From: Kitasatospora phosalacinea
GTDB taxonomy: Bacteria; Actinomycetota; Actinomycetes; Streptomycetales; Streptomycetaceae
Reading direction: 5' to 3'
Assembly: GCF_000717185.1 (NCBI RefSeq)
Contig: NZ_JNYE01000017.1
Span: 1 to 64,000 of the forward strand
DNA: 64,000 bases
Shown piece after piece: positions 8,692-19,956 of the stretch (its first letter is position 1; every line of letters begins with the position of its first letter). The position numbers were made by a program, and so were the translations under genes. Under the pieces are notes generated by a model. It did not search any database. It saw nothing but the letters and a program-made list of their open reading frames with translations, and was not told the DNA's origin.

Positions 8692-9162
8692 CGGCTGCGC
8701 GGCCTTTCGGGCTGGGCGCCCGGAATGGCTGGCGGAAGTGCCGCCGGGCGGGGACGCGCGCAGCGTATCCGGGCCGAACCACCTTGCGGGGAACGCCGGA
8801 TGAAGCAGAGGTAGCGGAATTCCGTACTCCGGATCCACGGCGGACGGACGGAGGAGATCCGAGGAAACCCGAGGAGGCCCGCGGCGGGCGGAGTGCGGGC
8901 GGAGTGCGGGCGCGGGCGGAGTGCGGGCGCGGGCGCGGGCGCGGGAACAACCGAGCGCCGCTGCCCACCCCCGTGGGGCAACGGCGCCCGAGCATCCGGA
9001 TGCCGATCCTGCCGACCTGGTCCACGGCGTGTCAACTATCGTGGATTCCCCGCTGCCGCCCGCACCCCGCGAATGACCGATCCCCACGTTTTCCGCACGG
9101 TTTCACCAACGATCGTGCAGAAGGGGACGGACGGGGGATACGCCCGGGGGTACGGAGCCTCT
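8692..9162. other. Intergenic region with repeats and a leftward promoter
   Basis: No convincing gene. From 8884 to 8945 there is a GC-only tandem array built from GCGGGCGGAGT and GCGGGC units. A TTGACA -35 on the minus strand (9030-9035) with CAGGAT at 18 bases (9006-9011) would give the glycosyltransferase gene a ~300-base leader. On the plus strand the ribosome binding site GGAG (9154-9157) belongs to the XRE gene. Confidence 0.6.
9006..9035 (-). promoter_or_regulatory. Leftward sigma-70-type promoter
   Basis: Read on the minus strand, a perfect TTGACA (9030-9035) is followed after 18 bases by CAGGAT (9006-9011). It faces the glycosyltransferase gene and diverges from the XRE-zincin operon. 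Confidence 0.55.
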
Positions 9163-9612
9163 ATGATCCGGCACATGCCCCAGGACACCCCCCGTGCCGG
9201 AGCCCCGGACTTCGCCAGCCGCTTCCGGCGCCTGATAGCGGTGATCTACCCCAAGGACCTCGGCCGTCCCTGGCGGGACAGCGAGATCGCCGAAGGCACC
9301 GGGCTGAGCGGCACCTACATCGGCAACCTGCGCAAGGGCACCCAGAAACCGAGCCTGGAGAACGCCGTCCGGATCGCGAAGTTCTTCGGCGTCCCGCTCG
9401 ACTACTTCTCCGATTCGGAGACCGCCCGCGCGGTGGAGCAGGACCTGCGCAAGATCGAGGCGCTGCGGGACGCCCGGGTCGAGCGGATCGCGATGCGCGC
9501 GGCCGGGCTGCCCCCCGAGATGCAGGACGCCGCACTCACTATTGTGGAGCAGTTGCGGCGGGCCGTGGGCCTGACCGACGGGCAGCCGGACGAGGCCGGC
9601 CCGGCGACGTGA
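9163..9612 (+). CDS. XRE-family helix-turn-helix regulator
   Basis: 149 residues from ATG 9163 with GGAG five bases upstream; an in-frame ATG at 9175 is the alternative. Residues 18-85 form a Cro/cI-type domain: DSEIAEGTGLSGTYIGNLRK is the recognition helix unit, followed by KPSLENAVRIAKFFGVPLDY. The C-terminal part is a charged helix rich in Glu and Arg (EQDLRKIEALRDARVERIAM) that could dimerise or touch a partner. First gene of a four-gene operon whose members overlap by 4, 8 and 4 bases. XRE plus HExxH zincin is the arrangement of ImmR/ImmA-like switches, in which the protease cuts the repressor; that role here is inference. Confidence 0.9.
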   Translation: MIRHMPQDTPRAGAPDFASRFRRLIAVIYPKDLGRPWRDSEIAEGTGLSGTYIGNLRKGTQKPSLENAVRIAKFFGVPLDYFSDSETARAVEQDLRKIEALRDARVERIAMRAAGLPPEMQDAALTIVEQLRRAVGLTDGQPDEAGPAT

Positions 9613-10184
9613 CGGAGCGTCAGCAGGTGCCGCTGGGGAACTGGCGGCTGCCGGAGGAGGTCGACGTGCGCGGTGTGGGCAGCGGACTGGGGCGGACCCG
9701 GCGCCGGATGCGGGGAGTCGCGCGCGACCTGCGCCTGCCGCCCCTGAGCACCGTCGAGGAGCTCTGCGACGCGGTCTCCGCCCACCTGGGCCGGACCATC
9801 CGGATCGCCCCGCGCCGGATGCGGGTCGGCGAACCCTCCGGCTTCGTCGAACGGCTCCCCGCCGAGGACGTCGTCCACGTCGAGGAGGAGACCTCCGGCC
9901 TGCACCGGGCGCACATCGTCTGCCACGAGCTGGCCCACCTGCTCTGCGGCCACCTGCCCGTGCCCGCACCGCACGAACCGGACGCCGCACGGGTCGAACT
10001 GCCCACCATCGACCCGGAGATGGTCCGGCTGGTGCTCGGCCGCTCGCACTACGACGACGCCGCCGAGGAGGAGGCCGAGGTGCTCGGCGCCGAACTGATG
10101 CGCGTCCTGGTGCTCGCCCCCGGCGCCGGCACCACCTCGCAGCTCGCCCCCGCGCTGGAGCACCGCAAGGGACAGCATGTCTGA
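9609..10184 (+). CDS. ImmA/IrrE-like zinc metallopeptidase
   Basis: 191 residues, GTG start overlapping the XRE stop. The central motif HIVCHELAHLLCGH contains HExxH with His106, Glu107 and His110. A run of acids, AAEEEAEVLGAELM around 157-170, is where the third ligand (Glu) of ImmA/IrrE-type zincins is expected. The first 60 residues are basic (GRTRRRMRGVARDLRLP) and may bind the partner or DNA. Relatives in Streptomyces are often labelled toxin or toxin component; I see no reason to prefer that over a protease. The next gene begins inside it (eight-base overlap), so expression is coupled to a membrane protein. Confidence 0.86.
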   Translation: MTERQQVPLGNWRLPEEVDVRGVGSGLGRTRRRMRGVARDLRLPPLSTVEELCDAVSAHLGRTIRIAPRRMRVGEPSGFVERLPAEDVVHVEEETSGLHRAHIVCHELAHLLCGHLPVPAPHEPDAARVELPTIDPEMVRLVLGRSHYDDAAEEEAEVLGAELMRVLVLAPGAGTTSQLAPALEHRKGQHV

Positions 10185-11409
10185 ACTGCCGTACGACCTG
10201 GTCTACCTGGGCATCGGCGGCGCCGCCTGGCTGGTCGCCGCGCTGAAGCTGCGGGCCTGGCGGCGCGACCCGTCCTTCGGGCTGCTGGTGGTCGCCCTGG
10301 CGATCGCCTCCCCCGCCACCGCCTTCCTGCTCGCCTCCCCCGTGCTGTACCGGGCGATCGGGCACCTCACCGGCGTCGGCAACCTCGCCACCCTGTTCGT
10401 CTACCTCGGCATCGTCGGCTTCTCCGCGGCCGCCGTGGTCCTGGCCCTGGTCTGGACCCCGCCCGAGGAGCGCACCGGCAGCCGGGTCTGGGCCCCGCTG
10501 GACGAGCGGCTGCGGCAGCGGGTGCGCCGCCGCACCGCCGTCTTCGCCGCCCTCGTCCCCGTGCTGGCCGCCCTGTTCCTGGTCGGCGGCCCCTACCGGC
10601 CCGAGACCCCGCTCACCTTCGACACCACCTTCGCCCCGCGCACCGCCACCGCCCTGTTCCTCGCCCTCTACCAGGGCCTGTTCGCCTACGCGCTGGTCGA
10701 CATCGGCCGGGTCTGCCTCGGCCACGCCGCCCGCCTCCCGCTCGGCCCGCTGCGCCGCGGCATCCGGCTGATCGCCCTCGGCGCGCTCACCGCCTGCGGC
10801 TACGTCCTGTGCAAGATCGCCGCGATCACGCTCGCCCACGCGGGCGTCGACGGCGCCGAGTGGCTCAGCACCGCCCTCGGCCCGGCCTTCGCCGCCCTCG
10901 GCGCGATCGGCATCACCTGCGGCTTCGCCGGGCCCGCCGCGGCCGCCTGGGCCGCCCGCCGCCGCGACTTCCGCGCCCTGCGCCCGCTCTGGGACCTCGT
11001 CTACCGGGCCGACCGCCGCCTCGCCCTGGAGGGCCCGCCCTCCCCCGCCTGGCGCGAGCGCCTCGCCCTGCGCGACCTCGAGTGGCGCACCACCCGGCGC
11101 GGGCTGGAGATCCGCGACGGCCAGCTGACCCTCCGTCCGTTCGTCGACCCCGGCGCCGTCCACGCCGCGCAGCGCCTGGCCGGGCGCGCCTCGCTCGCCC
11201 CCACCCACCGCGACGCCCTGGTGGTCGCCGCCGCGATGCGCTCCGCCGTCGCCGCCCTCGCCACCGGGGCCGTCCCCCGGCCGCGCGAGGAGCAGCCCGC
11301 CCTGCCCGGCCTGGACACCGCGCCCGACGAGGAGCGCGGCCACCTCGTCCTGGTCGCCGCCTACCTGCGCTCCCCGCTGCTGGACCGCGCGCTGGAACCC
11401 CGCACGTGA
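10177..11409 (+). CDS. Seven-helix membrane protein (MAB_1171c-type, function unknown)
   Basis: 410 residues from ATG 10177. Seven hydrophobic segments fall in residues 5-265 (for example LVYLGIGGAAWLVAALKL, LFVYLGIVGFSAAAVVLALV, ALFLALYQGLFAYALVDIG, GIGITCGFAGPAAAAW-like last helix). The remaining ~145 residues are soluble and start with RRRDFRALRPLWDLVYRADR, then LEWRTTRRGLEIRDGQLTL. This matches my memory of the actinobacterial MAB_1171c family, named as putative transporters without proof. A seven-helix core with a cytosolic tail could equally be a sensor. It is coupled to an XRE regulator, a zincin and an MpaB-like oxygenase, so a signal-transduction role is a reasonable guess. Confidence 0.8.
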   Translation: MSELPYDLVYLGIGGAAWLVAALKLRAWRRDPSFGLLVVALAIASPATAFLLASPVLYRAIGHLTGVGNLATLFVYLGIVGFSAAAVVLALVWTPPEERTGSRVWAPLDERLRQRVRRRTAVFAALVPVLAALFLVGGPYRPETPLTFDTTFAPRTATALFLALYQGLFAYALVDIGRVCLGHAARLPLGPLRRGIRLIALGALTACGYVLCKIAAITLAHAGVDGAEWLSTALGPAFAALGAIGITCGFAGPAAAAWAARRRDFRALRPLWDLVYRADRRLALEGPPSPAWRERLALRDLEWRTTRRGLEIRDGQLTLRPFVDPGAVHAAQRLAGRASLAPTHRDALVVAAAMRSAVAALATGAVPRPREEQPALPGLDTAPDEERGHLVLVAAYLRSPLLDRALEPRT

Positions 11410-12089
11410 GCCCTCCGCCGCCGCCCCCGCGGGACGCCTTCGCCGCCCTCGTCCTGCACCGGCGCCCGCAGCGCGCCCGGGTCGGCCTGACGCTCGGCTT
11501 CGTCCGCACCTTCGCCGTCCCCGAGATCGCCGAAGTCCTCTCCGGCACCGGCAAGTTGGCGTCCGCGCCGAAGGCCCGGGCGAAAGCCACCGGCGCCATG
11601 ATGTTCGCCCTGATCGGCCACGGCGTCGACAGCCCCGCCGGACGCGGGATCGTCGCCGAACTCGCCGCGATGCACCGACTCCCGGGCGTGGACGAGGAGT
11701 TGATGCGCTACGTGCTGGCCTGCTTCACCGTCTGCCCGGCCGAGCACGCCGCCGCCACCCCCGCCGAACGCGGAGCGGCCGCCGCCTTCGCCGCCGCACT
11801 CGCCGCGGCCCTCCGGCTCCCGCCGCTCCCCGGGCCCACCCTGGCCGAGACCGCCGTCTGGATGCGGGAGTTCGAAACCGCCAGGTTCGCCCCCAGCGAG
11901 GCCGGGCACCGACTCTGGCGGGCCGTCGCCCCGCTCTTCGCCGCCCGCCTCCCTGGCCCGCTCGCCCGCCACGCCCCCGCCTTCGGCGCCGCCCTCCTCG
12001 ACCCCCCGTTGCGCACCGCCCTCGCCCTCCCCCGCCCCGCCCTGCCGCTGCGCGCCGCGGCCCGCCTCGCCTTCCACCTCACCCGCTGA
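11406..12089 (+). CDS. MpaB/DUF2236-like oxygenase
   Basis: 227 residues, GTG start overlapping the previous stop by four bases. After a Pro-rich leader, HRRPQRARVGLTLGFVRTFA, then MMFALIGHGVDSPAGRGIVA, match the DUF2236 family that includes latex-clearing protein and the mycophenolic-acid oxygenase MpaB. HRL in IVAELAAMHRLPGV and the downstream LMRYVLACFTVCPAEHA fit heme-binding helices of that family, although I cannot confirm the axial ligands. At ~227 residues it is shorter than typical members (~280-400). Last gene of the operon; a hairpin lies 73 bases on. Confidence 0.75.
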   Translation: MSPPPPPPRDAFAALVLHRRPQRARVGLTLGFVRTFAVPEIAEVLSGTGKLASAPKARAKATGAMMFALIGHGVDSPAGRGIVAELAAMHRLPGVDEELMRYVLACFTVCPAEHAAATPAERGAAAAFAAALAAALRLPPLPGPTLAETAVWMREFETARFAPSEAGHRLWRAVAPLFAARLPGPLARHAPAFGAALLDPPLRTALALPRPALPLRAAARLAFHLTR

Positions 12090-13505: not shown

Positions 13506-14621
13506 TCACATGCCGTTCTTGCGGATCGGGGTGTACTCGGCCAGCTTGGACATCGGCACCTCGTGCGAGATGCAGCCCTGGCTTCCGGAGTCCTCCAGGA
13601 TGATCGCCTTGGTGTGCGCGGCGTCCGCCCAGCCGCCGAACAGCACCACGTGCTGCTCGCTGCGGTTGTCGACCACCAGCGCATCGCCGGGCTGGAGGTC
13701 CTTGCGGGCGATGTGGTGGGCGATGCCGGACGCCTCGCTGATCAGCGGCCCGGTGGTGGTGCCGGGGCCGGACAGGCCCCAGGCGGCGGAGACGAAGCCG
13801 GAGCAGTCGACCCGGTAGCCGTTGGTGACGGCGCCCTGGCTGTAGCCGAGCTTGCGCTCGACCCGCTCCATCGCCCGCTCCACCATGGCCCGGCGCTCGT
13901 CCGACACCCCGTCCAGCTTGGGCCGGGCGAGCACGCCGCGGCCCTCGCCGTTGCGCGGGTGCCGGTGGTCGGACCAGGCGTCCCAGCTGTTGCCGTTGAC
14001 GATCTTGGTCTTCCAGTCGCCGGTCGAGCGGTCCTTCAGCTTGGGGCCGTCGTGCTTGCCGCCCGGGCCGCTGATGACGCCCGTCCCGTCGTTGCCGCTG
14101 GTGTCGGTGCCGCCGGTGTGCGGCGAGGACGGCTGCCCGGCGTGGCCCCCGCCACCGCCGCCACCGCCGCCGGTGCCGCCGCCACCGCCCCTGCCGCCGC
14201 CCACGCCGTCGATGCCGGTGCCGGGCGACTTGGGGGAGGCGGGCTTGGCCTGCTCGTCGTGCTTGCGCTTGAGGTCCTCGGCGATCTTCCGCTCGACCGC
14301 CTCGTAGTCGGCGATCAGCTTCTTGATCTTCGCCGCGTCCTCGCCCAGCTCCTTGGTGAGCTTCTCCTTGGTCCTGGCCAGCGCCTCGGCCCGGGCGTTG
14401 ATCTCGTGGACGTCCCGGGTGACCTCGGCGAGGATCTTCCCCGCGCCGAGGACGCCCATGATCCAGCCCGAGAACACGTCGGTCGCCGCCGCCTTGGCGA
14501 CAGTTGCCTTGATGTGCCCGAGCTTGCCGGACATCTCTTCCATCCGCTGGTTGACCTGCTCGAAGTCCCGCTGGATCTTCAGCAGTTCACCCGGCTGGAA
14601 GCCGAACTGGTTCCCCGCCAT
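13506..14621 (-). CDS. WXG100-like coiled-coil protein with C-terminal NlpC/P60-type domain
   Basis: 371 residues from ATG 14621 (GAGGGGG upstream). Residues 1-125 are helical with long coiled-coil heptads (FEQVNQRMEEMSGKLGHIKA; EALARTKEKLTKELGEDAAK) and an FSGW turn. A Gly/Ser-rich linker spans ~145-205. Residues 255-371 are NlpC/P60-like: VDCSGFVSAAWGL has the catalytic Cys273, and SEQHVVLFGGW gives the His. Fusing an ESX-like helical domain to a cell-wall peptidase is the layout of polymorphic toxins and of type VII exported hydrolases. There is no Sec signal. The gene upstream on the same strand encodes a smaller WXG protein, probably its partner. Confidence 0.8.
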   Translation of the reverse strand: MAGNQFGFQPGELLKIQRDFEQVNQRMEEMSGKLGHIKATVAKAAATDVFSGWIMGVLGAGKILAEVTRDVHEINARAEALARTKEKLTKELGEDAAKIKKLIADYEAVERKIAEDLKRKHDEQAKPASPKSPGTGIDGVGGGRGGGGGTGGGGGGGGGHAGQPSSPHTGGTDTSGNDGTGVISGPGGKHDGPKLKDRSTGDWKTKIVNGNSWDAWSDHRHPRNGEGRGVLARPKLDGVSDERRAMVERAMERVERKLGYSQGAVTNGYRVDCSGFVSAAWGLSGPGTTTGPLISEASGIAHHIARKDLQPGDALVVDNRSEQHVVLFGGWADAAHTKAIILEDSGSQGCISHEVPMSKLAEYTPIRKNGM

Positions 14622-14663: not shown

Positions 14664-15008
14664 CTACAGGACGTTGGCGAGCTGCTTGACGGAGTCGCCG
14701 AGCTGCCCGAGCTCGTCCGCGACGCCGTTCAGCTCGCGCACCCGGCCCTGCGCGTGCGCGATGAACGCGTCCGCGGCCGCGCCGTGCCAGGTCAGGCTGC
14801 CGAGCAGGCCGTTGACCTCGCGGCCGAGGCCGTCGACCTGCTTGCCGAGCTCGGCCAGCTCCTGGGCGATCTTGTTCAGCTCGGCGTCGGCGTCGCCGAA
14901 CATCTTGCCGAGCGCCCAGTGCGCGATCTCGGCCGGAGCCATGACGATGTCCTCGGCGACCTTCGCCACGTCACCGACGAGGTGCTTGACGTCTCCGATC
15001 AGGTCCAC
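14664..15008 (-). CDS. WXG100-like small helical protein
   Basis: 114 residues from GTG 15008. It is almost entirely helical, with a helical hairpin joined by a LTWHGAAADAF turn that supplies the W-x-G signature near residue 73. QELAELGKQVDGLGREVNGL before it and VRELNGVADELGQLGDSVKQ after it have heptad repeats. No signal peptide. About 42 bases separate it from the NlpC/P60-type gene and both are read leftward, so I take them as one operon and perhaps one secreted complex. No ESX ATPase genes are in the window. Confidence 0.72.
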   Translation of the reverse strand: MDLIGDVKHLVGDVAKVAEDIVMAPAEIAHWALGKMFGDADAELNKIAQELAELGKQVDGLGREVNGLLGSLTWHGAAADAFIAHAQGRVRELNGVADELGQLGDSVKQLANVL

Positions 15009-15233: not shown

Positions 15234-18200
15234 GTGAGTTCTCCCGTAGCCCAGCAGCCCGCCCCCACGTTCGCGGAGCTGGCCGCCCGGCTGCCCGGCG
15301 TGATGCTGCGCGACGCGCAGCGGCTCGGCCGCCGCCTGGAGGGCACCCGCAAGGTCAGGTCGGCCGAGGGCCGGCAGAAGGTGCTGACCGAGCTGGCGTC
15401 CGACTTCGACCGCTCCGAGGCCCGGGTGGCCTCCCGCCGGGCGGCCGTGCCGGTGATCAGGTACCCGCAGGAGCTGCCGGTCGCGCAGAAGAAGGACGAG
15501 ATCCTGGCCGCCGTCCGCGACCACCAGGTGGTGATCGTGGCGGGCGAGACCGGCTCCGGCAAGACCACCCAGATCCCGAAGATCTGCCTGGAGCTGGGCC
15601 GCGGCGTCCAGGGCCTGATCGGCCACACCCAGCCGCGCCGGATCGCCGCCCGCACGGTCGCCGAGCGGGTCGCCGAGGAGCTGGCCACCCCGCTGGGCGA
15701 GGCGGTCGGCTGGAAGGTCCGGTTCACCGACCAGGCGGGCCAGGACACCCTGGTGAAGCTGATGACGGACGGCATCCTGCTGGCCGAGATCCAGACCGAC
15801 CGGGACCTGCGCCAGTACGACACCCTGATCATCGACGAGGCGCACGAGCGCAGCCTGAACATCGACTTCCTGCTCGGCTACCTCAAGCAGCTGCTGCCCC
15901 GCCGCCCCGACCTCAAGGTCGTCATCACCTCCGCGACCATCGACCCGGAGCGCTTCGCCGCGCACTTCGACGACGCCCCGATCATCGAGGTCTCCGGCCG
16001 CACCTACCCCGTCGAGGTCCGCTACCGCCCGCTCGTCGAGGACGGGGACCCGGAGGAGGACGACAACGACCGGGACCGCGACCGGGACCAGATCCAGGGC
16101 ATCTGCGACGCCGTCGAGGAGCTCCAGGCCGAAGGGCCGGGCGACATCCTGGTGTTCCTCTCCGGCGAGCGCGAGATCCGCGACACCGCCGACGCGCTGA
16201 CCAAGCTGAAACTGAGGTCCACCGAGGTCCTGCCGCTGTACGCCCGGCTCTCCTCGGCCGAGCAGCACCGGGTGTTCCAGCGCTCCTCGCAGCGCCGGGT
16301 GGTGCTGGCCACCAACGTCGCCGAGACCTCGCTGACCGTCCCCGGCATCAAGTACGTGATCGACCCGGGCACCGCCCGGATCTCCCGCTACAGCCACCGC
16401 ACCAAGGTGCAGCGCCTGCCGATCGAGGCGGTCAGCCAGGCCAGCGCCAACCAGCGCAAGGGCCGCTGCGGCCGCACCTCGGACGGCATCTGCATCCGGC
16501 TGTACTCGGAGGAGGACTTCCTCTCCCGCCCCGAGTTCACCGACGCCGAGATCCTGCGCACCAACCTGGCCTCGGTGATCCTCCAGATGACGGCGGCGGG
16601 CCTGGGCGACATCGCCGCCTTCCCGTTCCTCGACCCGCCGGACTCCCGGAACATCAAGGACGGCGTCAACCTGCTGCACGAGCTGGGCGCCCTCGACCCG
16701 GACGAGAAGGACCACCGCAAGCGGCTGACCGAGCTGGGCCGCAAGCTCGCCCAGCTCCCGGTCGACCCGCGGATGGCCCGGATGGTGCTGGAGGCCGACC
16801 GCCTCGGCTGCGTCCGCGACGTGATGGTGATCGCCGCCGCGCTCTCCATCCAGGACCCGCGCGAGCGCCCCGCCGAGAAGCGCCAGGCCGCCGACGAGCG
16901 GCACCGCCGCTTCCAGTCGGAGACCTCCGACTTCCTGTCCTACCTGTCGATCTGGCGCTACGTGCGGGAGCAGCAGAAGGAGCTGTCCTCCTCGGCGTTC
17001 CGCCGGATGTGCAAGTCCGAGTTCCTCAACTACCTGCGGATACGGGAGTGGCAGGACGTCTACGTCCAGCTGCGCACCATCGCCAAGCAGCTCGGCGTCA
17101 CCATCGACGAGCCGAACGACGACGCGGAGCCGGACGCGGACCGGATCCACCAGGCGCTGCTGTCCGGCCTGCTCTCCCACCTGGGCCTGTTCGACGTGGA
17201 GAAGCGCGAGTACGCGGGCGCCCGCGGGGCCCGGTTCGCGGTGTTCCCGGGCTCGGGGCTGTTCAAGAAGCCGCCGCGCTGGGTGATGTCGGCCGAGCTG
17301 GTGGAGACCTCCCGGCTGTGGGCGCGGATCAACGCGAAGATCGAGCCGGAGTGGGTGGAGCCGCTGGCGGCGCACCTGATCAAGCGCACGTACAGCGAGC
17401 CGCACTGGGAGAAGAAGGCCGGCGCGGTGCTGGCGTACGAGCGGGTGACGCTGTACGGGCTGCCGATCGTCGCGCAGCGCAAGGTCAACTACGGCCGGAT
17501 CGACCCGGAGCTGTGCCGGGAGCTGTTCATCCGCACCGCGCTGGTGGAGGGCGACTGGGAGACCCACCACCGGTTCTTCGCGGAGAACCGCAAGCTGCTC
17601 GACGAGGTCGAGGAGCTGGAGAACCGGGCCCGCCGCCGGGACATCCTGGTGGACGACCAGACCCTGTTCGACTTCTACGACGCCCGGCTGCCCGAGGACG
17701 TGGTCTCCGGGCGGCACTTCGACGCCTGGTGGAAGAAGGCCCGCCGCGAGCAGCCCGACCTGCTCAACTTCGAGAAGTCGATGCTGATCAACGACTCGGC
17801 GGACGGCGTCACCGAGGCCGACTACCCGGACTTCTGGCAGCAGGGCAAGCTGCGCTTCCCGCTGACGTACCAGTTCGAGCCGGGCAGCGACGCGGACGGC
17901 GTGACGGTGCACATCCCGCTGGCGGTGCTGAACCAGGTGGTGTCGGAGGGCTTCGACTGGCAGATCCCGGGCCTGCGCGCCGAGTTGGTGACGGCCTGGA
18001 TCCGCTCGCTGCCGAAGGCGGTGCGCCGCAACTTCGTCCCGGCGCCGGACTACGCCCGGGCGGCGATGCGCGAGCTGACCGACCGGCAGGAGCCCCTGCT
18101 GCCGACGCTGGAGCGGGTGCTGCACCGGATGTCGGGCCTGCCGATCCCGCCGGAGGCCTGGGACGAGGAGCGGATCCCGGACCACCTGAAGGTGACCTTC

Positions 18201-19196
18201 CGGGTGGTGGACGGCAAGCGGAAGCTCGCCGAGTCCAAGGACCTGGAGGAGCTGCGCCTGAAGCTCCAGCCGAAGCTGTCCGCGACGCTGTCCAGCGCCG
18301 CGTCCGGCCGCGGCATCGAGCGCACCGGCCTGACCGCCTGGCCGGACGACCTGCCGGTCCTGCAGCGCACCTTCGAGCAGCGCTCCAAGGGGCACTCGCT
18401 GCGCGCCTACCCGGCGCTGGTGGACGAGGGCGCGACGGTCGGCATCAAGCTGTTCGACACCCCGGAGGCCCAGCAGCGGGCGATGTGGGCGGGCACCCGC
18501 CGCCTGCTGATGCTGCGGGTCAACTCCCCGGCCAAGTCGATCCAGGGCCGGCTGGGCAACCAGGCCAAGCTCGCCCTGTCGTACAACCCGCACGGCTCGG
18601 TCCCGGCCCTGTTCGAGGACGTGGTGGCGGCGGCGACCGACCGCCTGATGACGCTGAACGGCGGGGTGGCCTGGGACGCGGAGGCGTTCGGCGCGCTGTA
18701 CGACAAGGTCCGGGCGGACCTGTACGAGCTGTCGGCGGACACCACGCTGAAGACGGCCTCGGCGCTGATCGCCTTCCACAAGGCGTCGACCCGCCTGAAG
18801 TCGGTCTCCAGCCCGGTGCTGCTGTCCGCGGTGAACGACGTGCGGCTGCACCTGGCCTCGCTGGTGCACCCGGGCTTCGTGGCCGACACCGGCTGGTCGC
18901 GCCTGGGCGACCTGAAGCGCTACCTGCTGGCGGTGGACCGCCGCCTGGAGGCGCTGCCCAACCACCCGCAGCGCGACCTGCAGAACCTGCTGAAGGTGCA
19001 GGCGGTGCAGCAGGCGTACGGGGAGCTGCTGGCGAAGGTCCCGGCGGGCCGGGAGCCGTCGCCGGAGGTGCGGGCGGTGCGCTGGATGATCGAGGAGCTG
19101 CGGGTGAGCTTCTTCGCGCAGGGGCTGGGCACGCCGAGCCCGGTGTCGGAGAAGCGGATCCTCAAGGCGATGGAGGCCGCGGCGGCCACCCTCTGA
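15234..19196 (+). CDS. hrpA: ATP-dependent RNA helicase HrpA (DEAH box)
   Basis: 1320 residues from GTG 15234, which has AGAGGG nine bases upstream; ATG 15225 is in frame but touches that site. Motif I GETGSGKT is at 104-111, DEAH at 201-204, then SATID, and QRKGRCGR as motif VI near 407. The HA2 and OB-type regions follow, and the last ~600 residues are the long C-terminal region (DUF3418) typical of bacterial HrpA, with a length of about 1300 as usual. HrpA unwinds RNA and in other bacteria rescues stalled ribosomes on mRNA. It stands alone upstream of tRNA-Asp and bldC, which fits the Streptomyces core order. Confidence 0.96.
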   Translation: MSSPVAQQPAPTFAELAARLPGVMLRDAQRLGRRLEGTRKVRSAEGRQKVLTELASDFDRSEARVASRRAAVPVIRYPQELPVAQKKDEILAAVRDHQVVIVAGETGSGKTTQIPKICLELGRGVQGLIGHTQPRRIAARTVAERVAEELATPLGEAVGWKVRFTDQAGQDTLVKLMTDGILLAEIQTDRDLRQYDTLIIDEAHERSLNIDFLLGYLKQLLPRRPDLKVVITSATIDPERFAAHFDDAPIIEVSGRTYPVEVRYRPLVEDGDPEEDDNDRDRDRDQIQGICDAVEELQAEGPGDILVFLSGEREIRDTADALTKLKLRSTEVLPLYARLSSAEQHRVFQRSSQRRVVLATNVAETSLTVPGIKYVIDPGTARISRYSHRTKVQRLPIEAVSQASANQRKGRCGRTSDGICIRLYSEEDFLSRPEFTDAEILRTNLASVILQMTAAGLGDIAAFPFLDPPDSRNIKDGVNLLHELGALDPDEKDHRKRLTELGRKLAQLPVDPRMARMVLEADRLGCVRDVMVIAAALSIQDPRERPAEKRQAADERHRRFQSETSDFLSYLSIWRYVREQQKELSSSAFRRMCKSEFLNYLRIREWQDVYVQLRTIAKQLGVTIDEPNDDAEPDADRIHQALLSGLLSHLGLFDVEKREYAGARGARFAVFPGSGLFKKPPRWVMSAELVETSRLWARINAKIEPEWVEPLAAHLIKRTYSEPHWEKKAGAVLAYERVTLYGLPIVAQRKVNYGRIDPELCRELFIRTALVEGDWETHHRFFAENRKLLDEVEELENRARRRDILVDDQTLFDFYDARLPEDVVSGRHFDAWWKKARREQPDLLNFEKSMLINDSADGVTEADYPDFWQQGKLRFPLTYQFEPGSDADGVTVHIPLAVLNQVVSEGFDWQIPGLRAELVTAWIRSLPKAVRRNFVPAPDYARAAMRELTDRQEPLLPTLERVLHRMSGLPIPPEAWDEERIPDHLKVTFRVVDGKRKLAESKDLEELRLKLQPKLSATLSSAASGRGIERTGLTAWPDDLPVLQRTFEQRSKGHSLRAYPALVDEGATVGIKLFDTPEAQQRAMWAGTRRLLMLRVNSPAKSIQGRLGNQAKLALSYNPHGSVPALFEDVVAAATDRLMTLNGGVAWDAEAFGALYDKVRADLYELSADTTLKTASALIAFHKASTRLKSVSSPVLLSAVNDVRLHLASLVHPGFVADTGWSRLGDLKRYLLAVDRRLEALPNHPQRDLQNLLKVQAVQQAYGELLAKVPAGREPSPEVRAVRWMIEELRVSFFAQGLGTPSPVSEKRILKAMEAAAATL

Positions 19197-19749: not shown

Positions 19750-19956
19750 TCAGACCTCGGTGCGCTGGGCCGGAATACCGGCCAGCAGGGCACGCACCTC
19801 CGCCTCGCGGTAGCGGCGGTGGCCGCCGAGGGTCCGGATCGACGTGAGCTTGCCCGCCTTGGCCCAGCGGGTCACGGTCTTCGGGTCCACGCGGAACATG
19901 GTGGCGACCTCTGCCGGTGTCAGCAGGGGCTCGGCGTCAGGGGTACGAGCGGTCAT
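19750..19956 (-). CDS. bldC: Developmental regulator BldC
   Basis: 68 residues from ATG 19956 with GAGGAGG six bases upstream. The sequence is almost identical to S. coelicolor BldC as I remember it: a MerR-like winged helix-turn-helix with LLTPAEVATMFRVDPKTVTR and the wing TLGGHRRYREAEVRALLAG; only the last few residues differ (IPAQRTEV). BldC binds direct repeats cooperatively and holds back entry into sporulation. Unlike MerR proteins it has no effector or dimerisation domain, consistent with its length. It sits between hrpA/tRNA-Asp and the conserved hypothetical next to vdh, as in S. coelicolor. Confidence 0.97.
   Translation of the reverse strand: MTARTPDAEPLLTPAEVATMFRVDPKTVTRWAKAGKLTSIRTLGGHRRYREAEVRALLAGIPAQRTEV

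Follow-up and report, generated by a model that had tools for sequence, protein, structure and literature searches.

A cluster of four overlapping genes was found near the beginning of the analyzed window, i.e., the whole stretch of 64,000 nucleotides from Kitasatospora phosalacinea (contig NZ_JNYE01000017.1, positions 1 to 64,000). The genes are located on the forward (+) strand and encode an EspR-family XRE regulator (gene position 9163–9612, likely start 9175), an IrrE/ImmA/CapP-type zincin (9609–10184, GTG start), a DUF6545/MAB_1171c protein with seven transmembrane helices (7-TM; 10177–11409, ATG start) and a putative MpaB/Lcp-like (DUF2236) heme oxygenase (11406–12089, GTG start). We consider it reasonably probable that this locus represents one instance of a signalling cassette widespread among actinobacteria, with a receptor-gated protease and an EspR-type regulator accompanied by a payload gene. 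This reading is built on gene order, linkage, co-evolution, predicted folds, conservation of the active sites and the promoter footprint, and the cassette seems to represent a so far undescribed mode of environmental sensing in this bacterium and many of its relatives. As stated in the initial annotation, the open reading frames share 4, 8 and 4 bases, and all four were found to be coding by codon usage. The same four-gene order was present in 16 orthologous loci (in L053 the fourth gene was missed by the gene-calling script and recovered as L249). The zincin and membrane protein genes overlapped by 8 bases in 42 and by 4 bases in 33 of 125 adjacent called pairs; since these overlaps recur, the coupling is not due to chance.

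The neighbourhoods were drawn from PF20182 hits and are therefore rich in Streptomycetaceae and mostly high-scoring; in addition, three plasmid loci (L130, L131 and L132) were obtained by searching for the zincin and were thus selected for its presence. In total, 151 loci including the window were cut after the exclusion of L034–L037, which duplicated records of loci already included, and script gene calling gave 148 DUF6545 genes in 144 loci and no call in the other 7. In a check against the window and two plasmids, the script missed three annotated plasmid genes. PF20182 matches were found in 61 of 70 genomes of the genus (no more than 7 per genome, with some genes split into two matches), in 116 of 150 genomes of the family and in at least 18 of 396 genomes of the phylum. 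The last count is a lower bound, since three genomes searched without a match (G253, G497 and G561) each contained a DUF6545 orthologue.

The zincin gene was the next gene upstream for 125 of the 148 DUF6545 genes. Among the other 23, 22 had a zincin in the locus, either missed by the script or placed elsewhere, and only L059 had none. At 60% identity, a zincin was called directly upstream in at least one case in 71 of 81 clusters. A reverse search found the zincin in 44 of 61 family genomes, and the best locus of each of 30 genomes contained DUF6545 in 30 and XRE in 26 cases. The evolutionary distances among XRE, zincin and 7-TM proteins were correlated (0.84, 0.76 and 0.79), values reached in none of 999 permutations of a Mantel test on 54 non-redundant of 89 triplets. 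The idea of one system, which had been put forward together with a check of gene neighbourhoods, thus stands for these three genes, which are near-obligate, co-evolving neighbours, and falls for the fourth. A second layout was observed in several loci (L210, L213, L137, L140, L147, L150 and L057), where DUF6545 is followed by a gap of about 290–400 bases and an XRE-zincin pair; these loci adjoin a gene for 1100–1200 amino acids (aa), which by eye resembles a polyketide synthase in the two inspected, L210 and L137. In L225 and L227, a tandem DUF6545 pair lies behind a single zincin.

The fourth position was analyzed as a payload, defined as a same-strand gene within 150 bases of DUF6545 and labelled from one representative per cluster. 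The 72 payload positions were occupied by MpaB (17), a P450 cluster (15, of which 13 had the P450 motif), PAP2-like proteins (11; the representative scored below the cut-off of Pfam), an unknown family (4), amidases (4), methyltransferases (4), proteins resembling flavin adenine dinucleotide (FAD)-dependent oxygenases (3), aldo-keto reductases (3), mycothiol-transferase-like proteins (2), a second DUF6545 (2) and singletons (7). The annotated plasmids concur, with a P450, an amidase and a FAD monooxygenase as payloads, and the second cassette of the same K. phosalacinea genome (L038) has a PAP2-like payload. A reading in which four fixed genes form the operon was therefore rejected: with MpaB in only 17 of 72 positions, the fourth gene is a swappable payload and not part of a fixed set, as had been supposed. 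In a FastTree tree of 139 of the 148 DUF6545 proteins (short gene calls were dropped), the payload label required 14 changes among payload carriers and 30 when "none" was included; the payload is mostly inherited and sometimes swapped. The MpaB type was concentrated in the genus of the window (16 of 17). Among 297 family genomes, all 21 MpaB homologues with at least 56% identity were located directly behind DUF6545; for the next nine hits fetched (37–47%), this was so in three (L257, L258 and L261), and one lower hit (38%, L174) lay in a locus with the whole set.

The regulator was assigned to the XRE proteins (PF01381, 38 bits), as initially annotated. A comparison with the PDB showed near full-length homology (residues 14–137, helix-turn-helix (HTH) and C-terminal helical part) to EspR (Rv3849), the mycobacterial nucleoid-associated virulence regulator, with an E-value of 4.4e-16 to entry 3r1f for the single sequence and 3.6e-40 for a profile of 33 sequences. 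The next match was the regulator entry 9sf2 (3.9e-10), while SinR, DdrO and ImmR were far weaker matches confined to the HTH region. According to the available excerpts of PMC3315491, EspR is a dimer bridging distant sites, acts both as an activator and as a repressor, and is a global nucleoid-associated protein with hundreds of sites, two of which flank its own promoter; without its C-terminus it keeps DNA binding and loses dimerisation and activation. The term "repressor" used in the initial annotation is thus too general for an EspR-type protein.

The HExxH motif noted previously was found in the zincin, together with a downstream Glu. The match to PF06114 (M78) gave 14.9 bits, below the curated cut-off of 22, and this family was matched by 24 of 64 aligned zincin members at an E-value of 0.01 or better. 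Since the sequence gave only weak BepA-type and FtsH-type matches in the PDB, fold comparison was needed; the predicted model has the metal site (HExxH...E) and the fold of IrrE/PprI/CapP. The protease-regulator logic proposed earlier agrees with the IrrE and CapP folds of the model. IrrE cuts the last 23 residues off DdrO, which probably abolishes dimerisation, according to the accessible part of PMC5552922.

Membership of the third protein in DUF6545/MAB_1171c was supported by 159.9 bits in NCBIfam (cut-off 100) and 88.7 bits in Pfam (cut-off 24.4). The predicted model contains seven long helices and a helical tail, in agreement with the annotated seven-helix protein with a cytosolic tail. 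Residues 1–267 form a bundle arranged like that of a G-protein-coupled receptor (GPCR) with the N-terminus outside, residues 268–280 a helix-8-like segment and residues 281–410 a predicted helical cytosolic tail, which was barely covered by the fold search. All of the best 50 rows of both the Foldseek and the VIA-align lists were receptors or receptor-like designs. Microbial rhodopsins were absent from the best 50 rows of each list, which does not in itself exclude them. The segment directly after TM7 is the most strongly conserved single part of the protein, and the ends of TM6 and TM7 on the inner side are also strongly conserved; both features, together with the GPCR-like model, suit the earlier suggestion of a sensor. 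Coupling to heterotrimeric G proteins is not expected in bacteria. The open-access literature yielded no paper under the name DUF6545.

The fourth protein itself had no Pfam hit up to an E-value of 1, PF09995 included, and this family was found in 25 of 28 members of its alignment. The profile matched the trans-anethole oxygenase 8s1j in the PDB (1.3e-5). Residues R58, T62 and H90 were invariant in the 28 sequences and aligned with R, T and H of that enzyme; we take them to be the heme-site Arg, Thr and axial His by analogy with Lcp. The alignment of the heme ligands and the oxygenase match thus favour the heme oxygenase proposed from the outset, and the protein is named here a putative MpaB/Lcp-like heme oxygenase.

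The region upstream of the regulator gene was compared in 17 orthologues and was poorly conserved outside a palindrome, CGATCCTGC, TGTCAACTATCGTGGAT, CAACGATCGTGCA and TCTATGATCC. The near-perfect 29-base palindrome GCCGYTGCCCACCCCCGTGGGGCARCGGC (8957–8985, no strand assigned), a putative cis element, was kept in all 17 save two Y/R (pyrimidine/purine) positions and had no second match in its own genome at up to 3 mismatches. Its core also precedes the cassette in L277–L280, the first two of which belong to other genera, and was not found at L281–L283 or L174. The invariant CGATCCTGC (9004–9012, no strand assigned; 17/17) may be a degenerate half-site of the regulator. Putative operator 1, TGTCAACTATCGTGGAT (9030–9046, +), was identical in all 17 orthologues, and its other four matches in the genome each had 3 mismatches. 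Putative operator 2, CAACGATCGTGCA (9107–9119, +), lies 74 bases downstream; CAACGATCG was kept in 16 of 17, with one change in L040. The spacing was 74–76 bases (about 7 helical turns) in 17/17. Only seven CAACNATCGTG-type sites occur in the 8.6 Mb genome, two of them being operators 1 and 2. The site pair suggests a local autoregulator that loops DNA, and its spacing is consistent with looping by a dimer of dimers like that of EspR. Whereas hundreds of sites are given for EspR in the excerpts mentioned above, the Kitasatospora site pair has hardly any counterparts elsewhere in its genome, and the upstream region lacks the EspR motif (see below).

A −10-like TATGAT (9162–9167, +) was found 7 bases before the ATG at 9175 within TCTATGATCC, which is invariant in 17/17. 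Because the first ATG (9163) sits within this element and is out of frame, 11 bases from the second ATG, in 4 of the 17 orthologues, the second ATG (9175) is the probable start of the regulator. This position of TATGAT suggests a leaderless or near-leaderless mRNA. The sigma-70 scan detected no full promoter and the terminator scan no terminator, and a structured-RNA search gave one sub-threshold, chance-like hit.

A link to mycobacteria was revealed by L219 and L220, where the neighbour of DUF6545-zincin is EspR itself (an E-value of 2.7e-67 to the PDB entry for the L220 protein); on this basis their genus was taken as Mycobacterium-like. In 138 genomes of this genus, espR was found in 136 and the DUF6545 orthologue in 76. 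The two genes were convergent and no more than 142 bases apart in 72 of these 76 genomes; in the remaining four, they were 1.6 kb apart (G697), on different contigs (G741 and G809) or espR gave no hit (G797). The zincin followed DUF6545 in 29 of 30 such loci examined, and the 30th stops at the contig edge. Twenty loci (within the L219, L220, L349–L368 series) were compared, 17 picked for the lack and three for the presence of a DUF6545 orthologue. In all of the 17, espR lies directly beside a DUF6474 gene, and in the three, DUF6545-zincin lies between these genes. This comparison indicates that a single defined site next to espR either contains or lacks the pair. Presumably, M. tuberculosis has the espR arrangement without the pair.

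The following mechanism may be proposed, in which we infer cleavage, gating, the ligand, the substrate of the enzyme and hence the receptor–protease–regulator steps. The GPCR-shaped 7-TM protein, with its N-terminus outside and its helical C-tail inside, would sense a molecule, probably hydrophobic, that is extracellular or carried in the membrane. Conserved inner parts of the 7-TM protein (the ends of TM6 and TM7, the helix-8-like segment and the tail) would hold or activate the soluble IrrE-type zinc protease, the product of the overlapping gene. The activated protease would trim the C-terminal dimerisation part off the EspR-type regulator, as IrrE does with the last 23 residues of DdrO; the loss of the dimer would break the bridge between the two sites 74–76 bases apart in front of the regulator gene, so that operon expression would go up or down. 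The payload heme oxygenase could make, modify or destroy a hydrophobic molecule, plausibly the ligand itself, which would close a feedback loop. Gating and trimming are proposed because IrrE cuts the C-terminus of DdrO and EspR without its C-terminus does not dimerise, as described in the portions of the sources available. A broader proposal, which we regard as possible and rather doubtful, is that a class of actinobacterial receptors of GPCR shape acts on EspR-type regulators through an IrrE-type protease that is a separate protein, with every copy reading a different hydrophobic molecule and many having a matching oxidative or lipid enzyme. Mycobacterial EspR would belong to this pathway and would be its orphan or free-running output where the pair is lacking and espR lies directly beside the DUF6474 gene.

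A number of observations weigh against the signalling cassette. The GPCR-like fold is a match of shape to a predicted model, with a best Foldseek E-value of 0.01 among the listed matches and TM-scores of 0.23–0.39 by query length, and a profile of 58 sequences found no GPCR homologue in the PDB up to an E-value of 10. The outer halves of TM2–TM5 are as conserved as the inner halves or slightly more so, and conservation of the inner loops does not exceed that of extracellular loops 1 and 3 (ECL1 and ECL3). The confidence of the zincin model is moderate (78). The EspR motif TTTGC[TC][GA] was absent from both strands of 8692–9175, and CAACNATCG was found upstream of 4 of 108 other cassette regulators (background 0.010 per 380 bases); the site motif is thus not common to cassettes, whose sites probably differ from one to the next. 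According to the excerpts of PMC3315491, EspR retains DNA binding after truncation, so clipping need not release the regulator. The payload is optional, being absent from the same strand within 150 bases for 68 of the 139 DUF6545 genes of the tree set. The pair of the Mycobacterium-like genus faces espR in convergent orientation, outside the espR operon, and espR is present in 61 of 62 genomes without the DUF6545 orthologue. Finally, the one open-access paper found to name MAB_1171c calls this member a transporter in the part of the text available (PMC8707978).

If DUF6545 is a transporter, the operon would make or modify a small molecule by means of MpaB, P450 or the PAP2-like enzyme and export or import it, while XRE and zincin would provide ordinary local regulation. 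We consider this rather unlikely. The family is named "MAB_1171c family putative transporter", the conservation of several outer helix halves would suit transport, and the TOG superfamily holds transporters and receptors alike (accessible portion of PMC7176098). The M. abscessus MAB_1171c mutant formed roughly half as much biofilm by mass and showed lower minimum inhibitory concentrations of clarithromycin and cefoxitin (excerpts of PMC8707978); the transporter label derives from annotation and this phenotype, as far as these excerpts go. However, receptors or receptor-like designs fill the best rows of both fold lists, conservation peaks after TM7, and the linkage is near-absolute for the zincin and optional for the enzyme.

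A toxin-antitoxin or stress module, with a zincin toxin held by an XRE antitoxin and the membrane protein as an accessory, seems improbable. Several plasmid records do annotate the zincin as a "toxin", and a Zn-metalloproteinase/HTH-Xre pair was studied as a toxin-antitoxin system (available part of PMC10538038), but here three parts co-evolve, including the 7-TM protein, the zincin groups by fold with IrrE and CapP, and the copy studied keeps its synteny and its control elements across the genus, unlike addiction modules. PADLOC gave 12 weak HTH hits for XRE (best capH, 2.8e-8) and none for the zincin or the other two proteins; anti-phage defence was likewise rejected on this result. Still less probable is a peptide pheromone system, in which the zincin would trim a small exported peptide received by the 7-TM protein. 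A gene for a ribosomally synthesized and post-translationally modified peptide (RiPP) of the LxmA leader domain family lies directly before zincin-DUF6545 in L131 (5371–7673, S. clavuligerus plasmid), and another cassette lies near lanthipeptide genes. Against this, the conserved upstream blocks resemble regulatory DNA (small open reading frames were not searched for there), and no export signal was evident in the zincin by eye.

The signalling cassette, which we thus prefer, resembles several known systems. IrrE(PprI)-DdrO of Deinococcus, ImmA-ImmR (ICEBs1) and CapP-CapH likewise place a separate HExxH protease beside an XRE protein with a C-terminal dimerisation part; the cassette adds a 7-TM receptor-like protein, and its XRE is of the EspR type. 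ImmA and CapP are located on mobile or defence elements. IrrE/PprI responds in the cytosol to DNA damage or redox state via zinc, as far as the source excerpts describe it, whereas here a receptor-like protein belongs to the set. In BlaR1-BlaI and MecR1-MecI, a membrane sensor also acts through a zinc protease to inactivate a DNA-binding regulator, but there a single polypeptide combines sensor and protease, and the regulator has a winged-helix fold, whereas the cassette comprises three separate proteins with other folds. The 7TMR-DISM, 7TMR-HD and LytS-type receptors likewise cross the bacterial membrane with several helices and signal into the cytosol, through a fused kinase, cyclase or HD domain and not a separate zincin; the predicted helical bundle of the cassette, for its part, matches GPCRs. 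The Streptomyces conservons are likewise multi-copy signalling cassettes with P450 genes attached, but the kinase-like, roadblock and GTPase proteins of conservons have no counterpart in the cassette operon.

Among the open-access literature matches listed (on XRE/ImmA/MpaB, EspR, bacterial GPCR and TOG/7TMR topics), no description of this set was found, and none of the matches linked EspR to such a protease. If the proposal is true, the cassette would represent a simple, genetically tractable bacterial receptor of 7-TM GPCR-like shape with a defined cytosolic partner. Many genomes carry several copies of this system, which in antibiotic producers is linked to P450s and other oxygenases. A function would be supplied for DUF6545, now annotated as a transporter, and a protease and a receptor would be placed upstream of EspR, a much-studied mycobacterial regulator.

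Beyond the cassette, a WXG100-like protein of 114 aa is encoded on the opposite strand (14,664–15,008, −), with matches to PF06013 (9.2e-6) and DUF948 (3.3e-6), both below the cut-off. It is followed by a gene for a 371-aa protein (13,506–14,621, −) without a Pfam match, the end of which looks NlpC/P60-like by eye. Several Kitasatospora orthologues have genes of similar size convergent beyond the cassette. The position of this type VII-like pair next to an EspR-type regulator may be due to chance. A gene that we take, by eye, to encode an HrpA-like helicase (15,234–19,196, +) and a MerR-type regulator gene (HTH_17/MerR match; 19,750–19,956, −), presumably BldC-like, are also located close to the cassette. 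Judging by these two genes, the cassette appears to lie in a core chromosomal neighbourhood.

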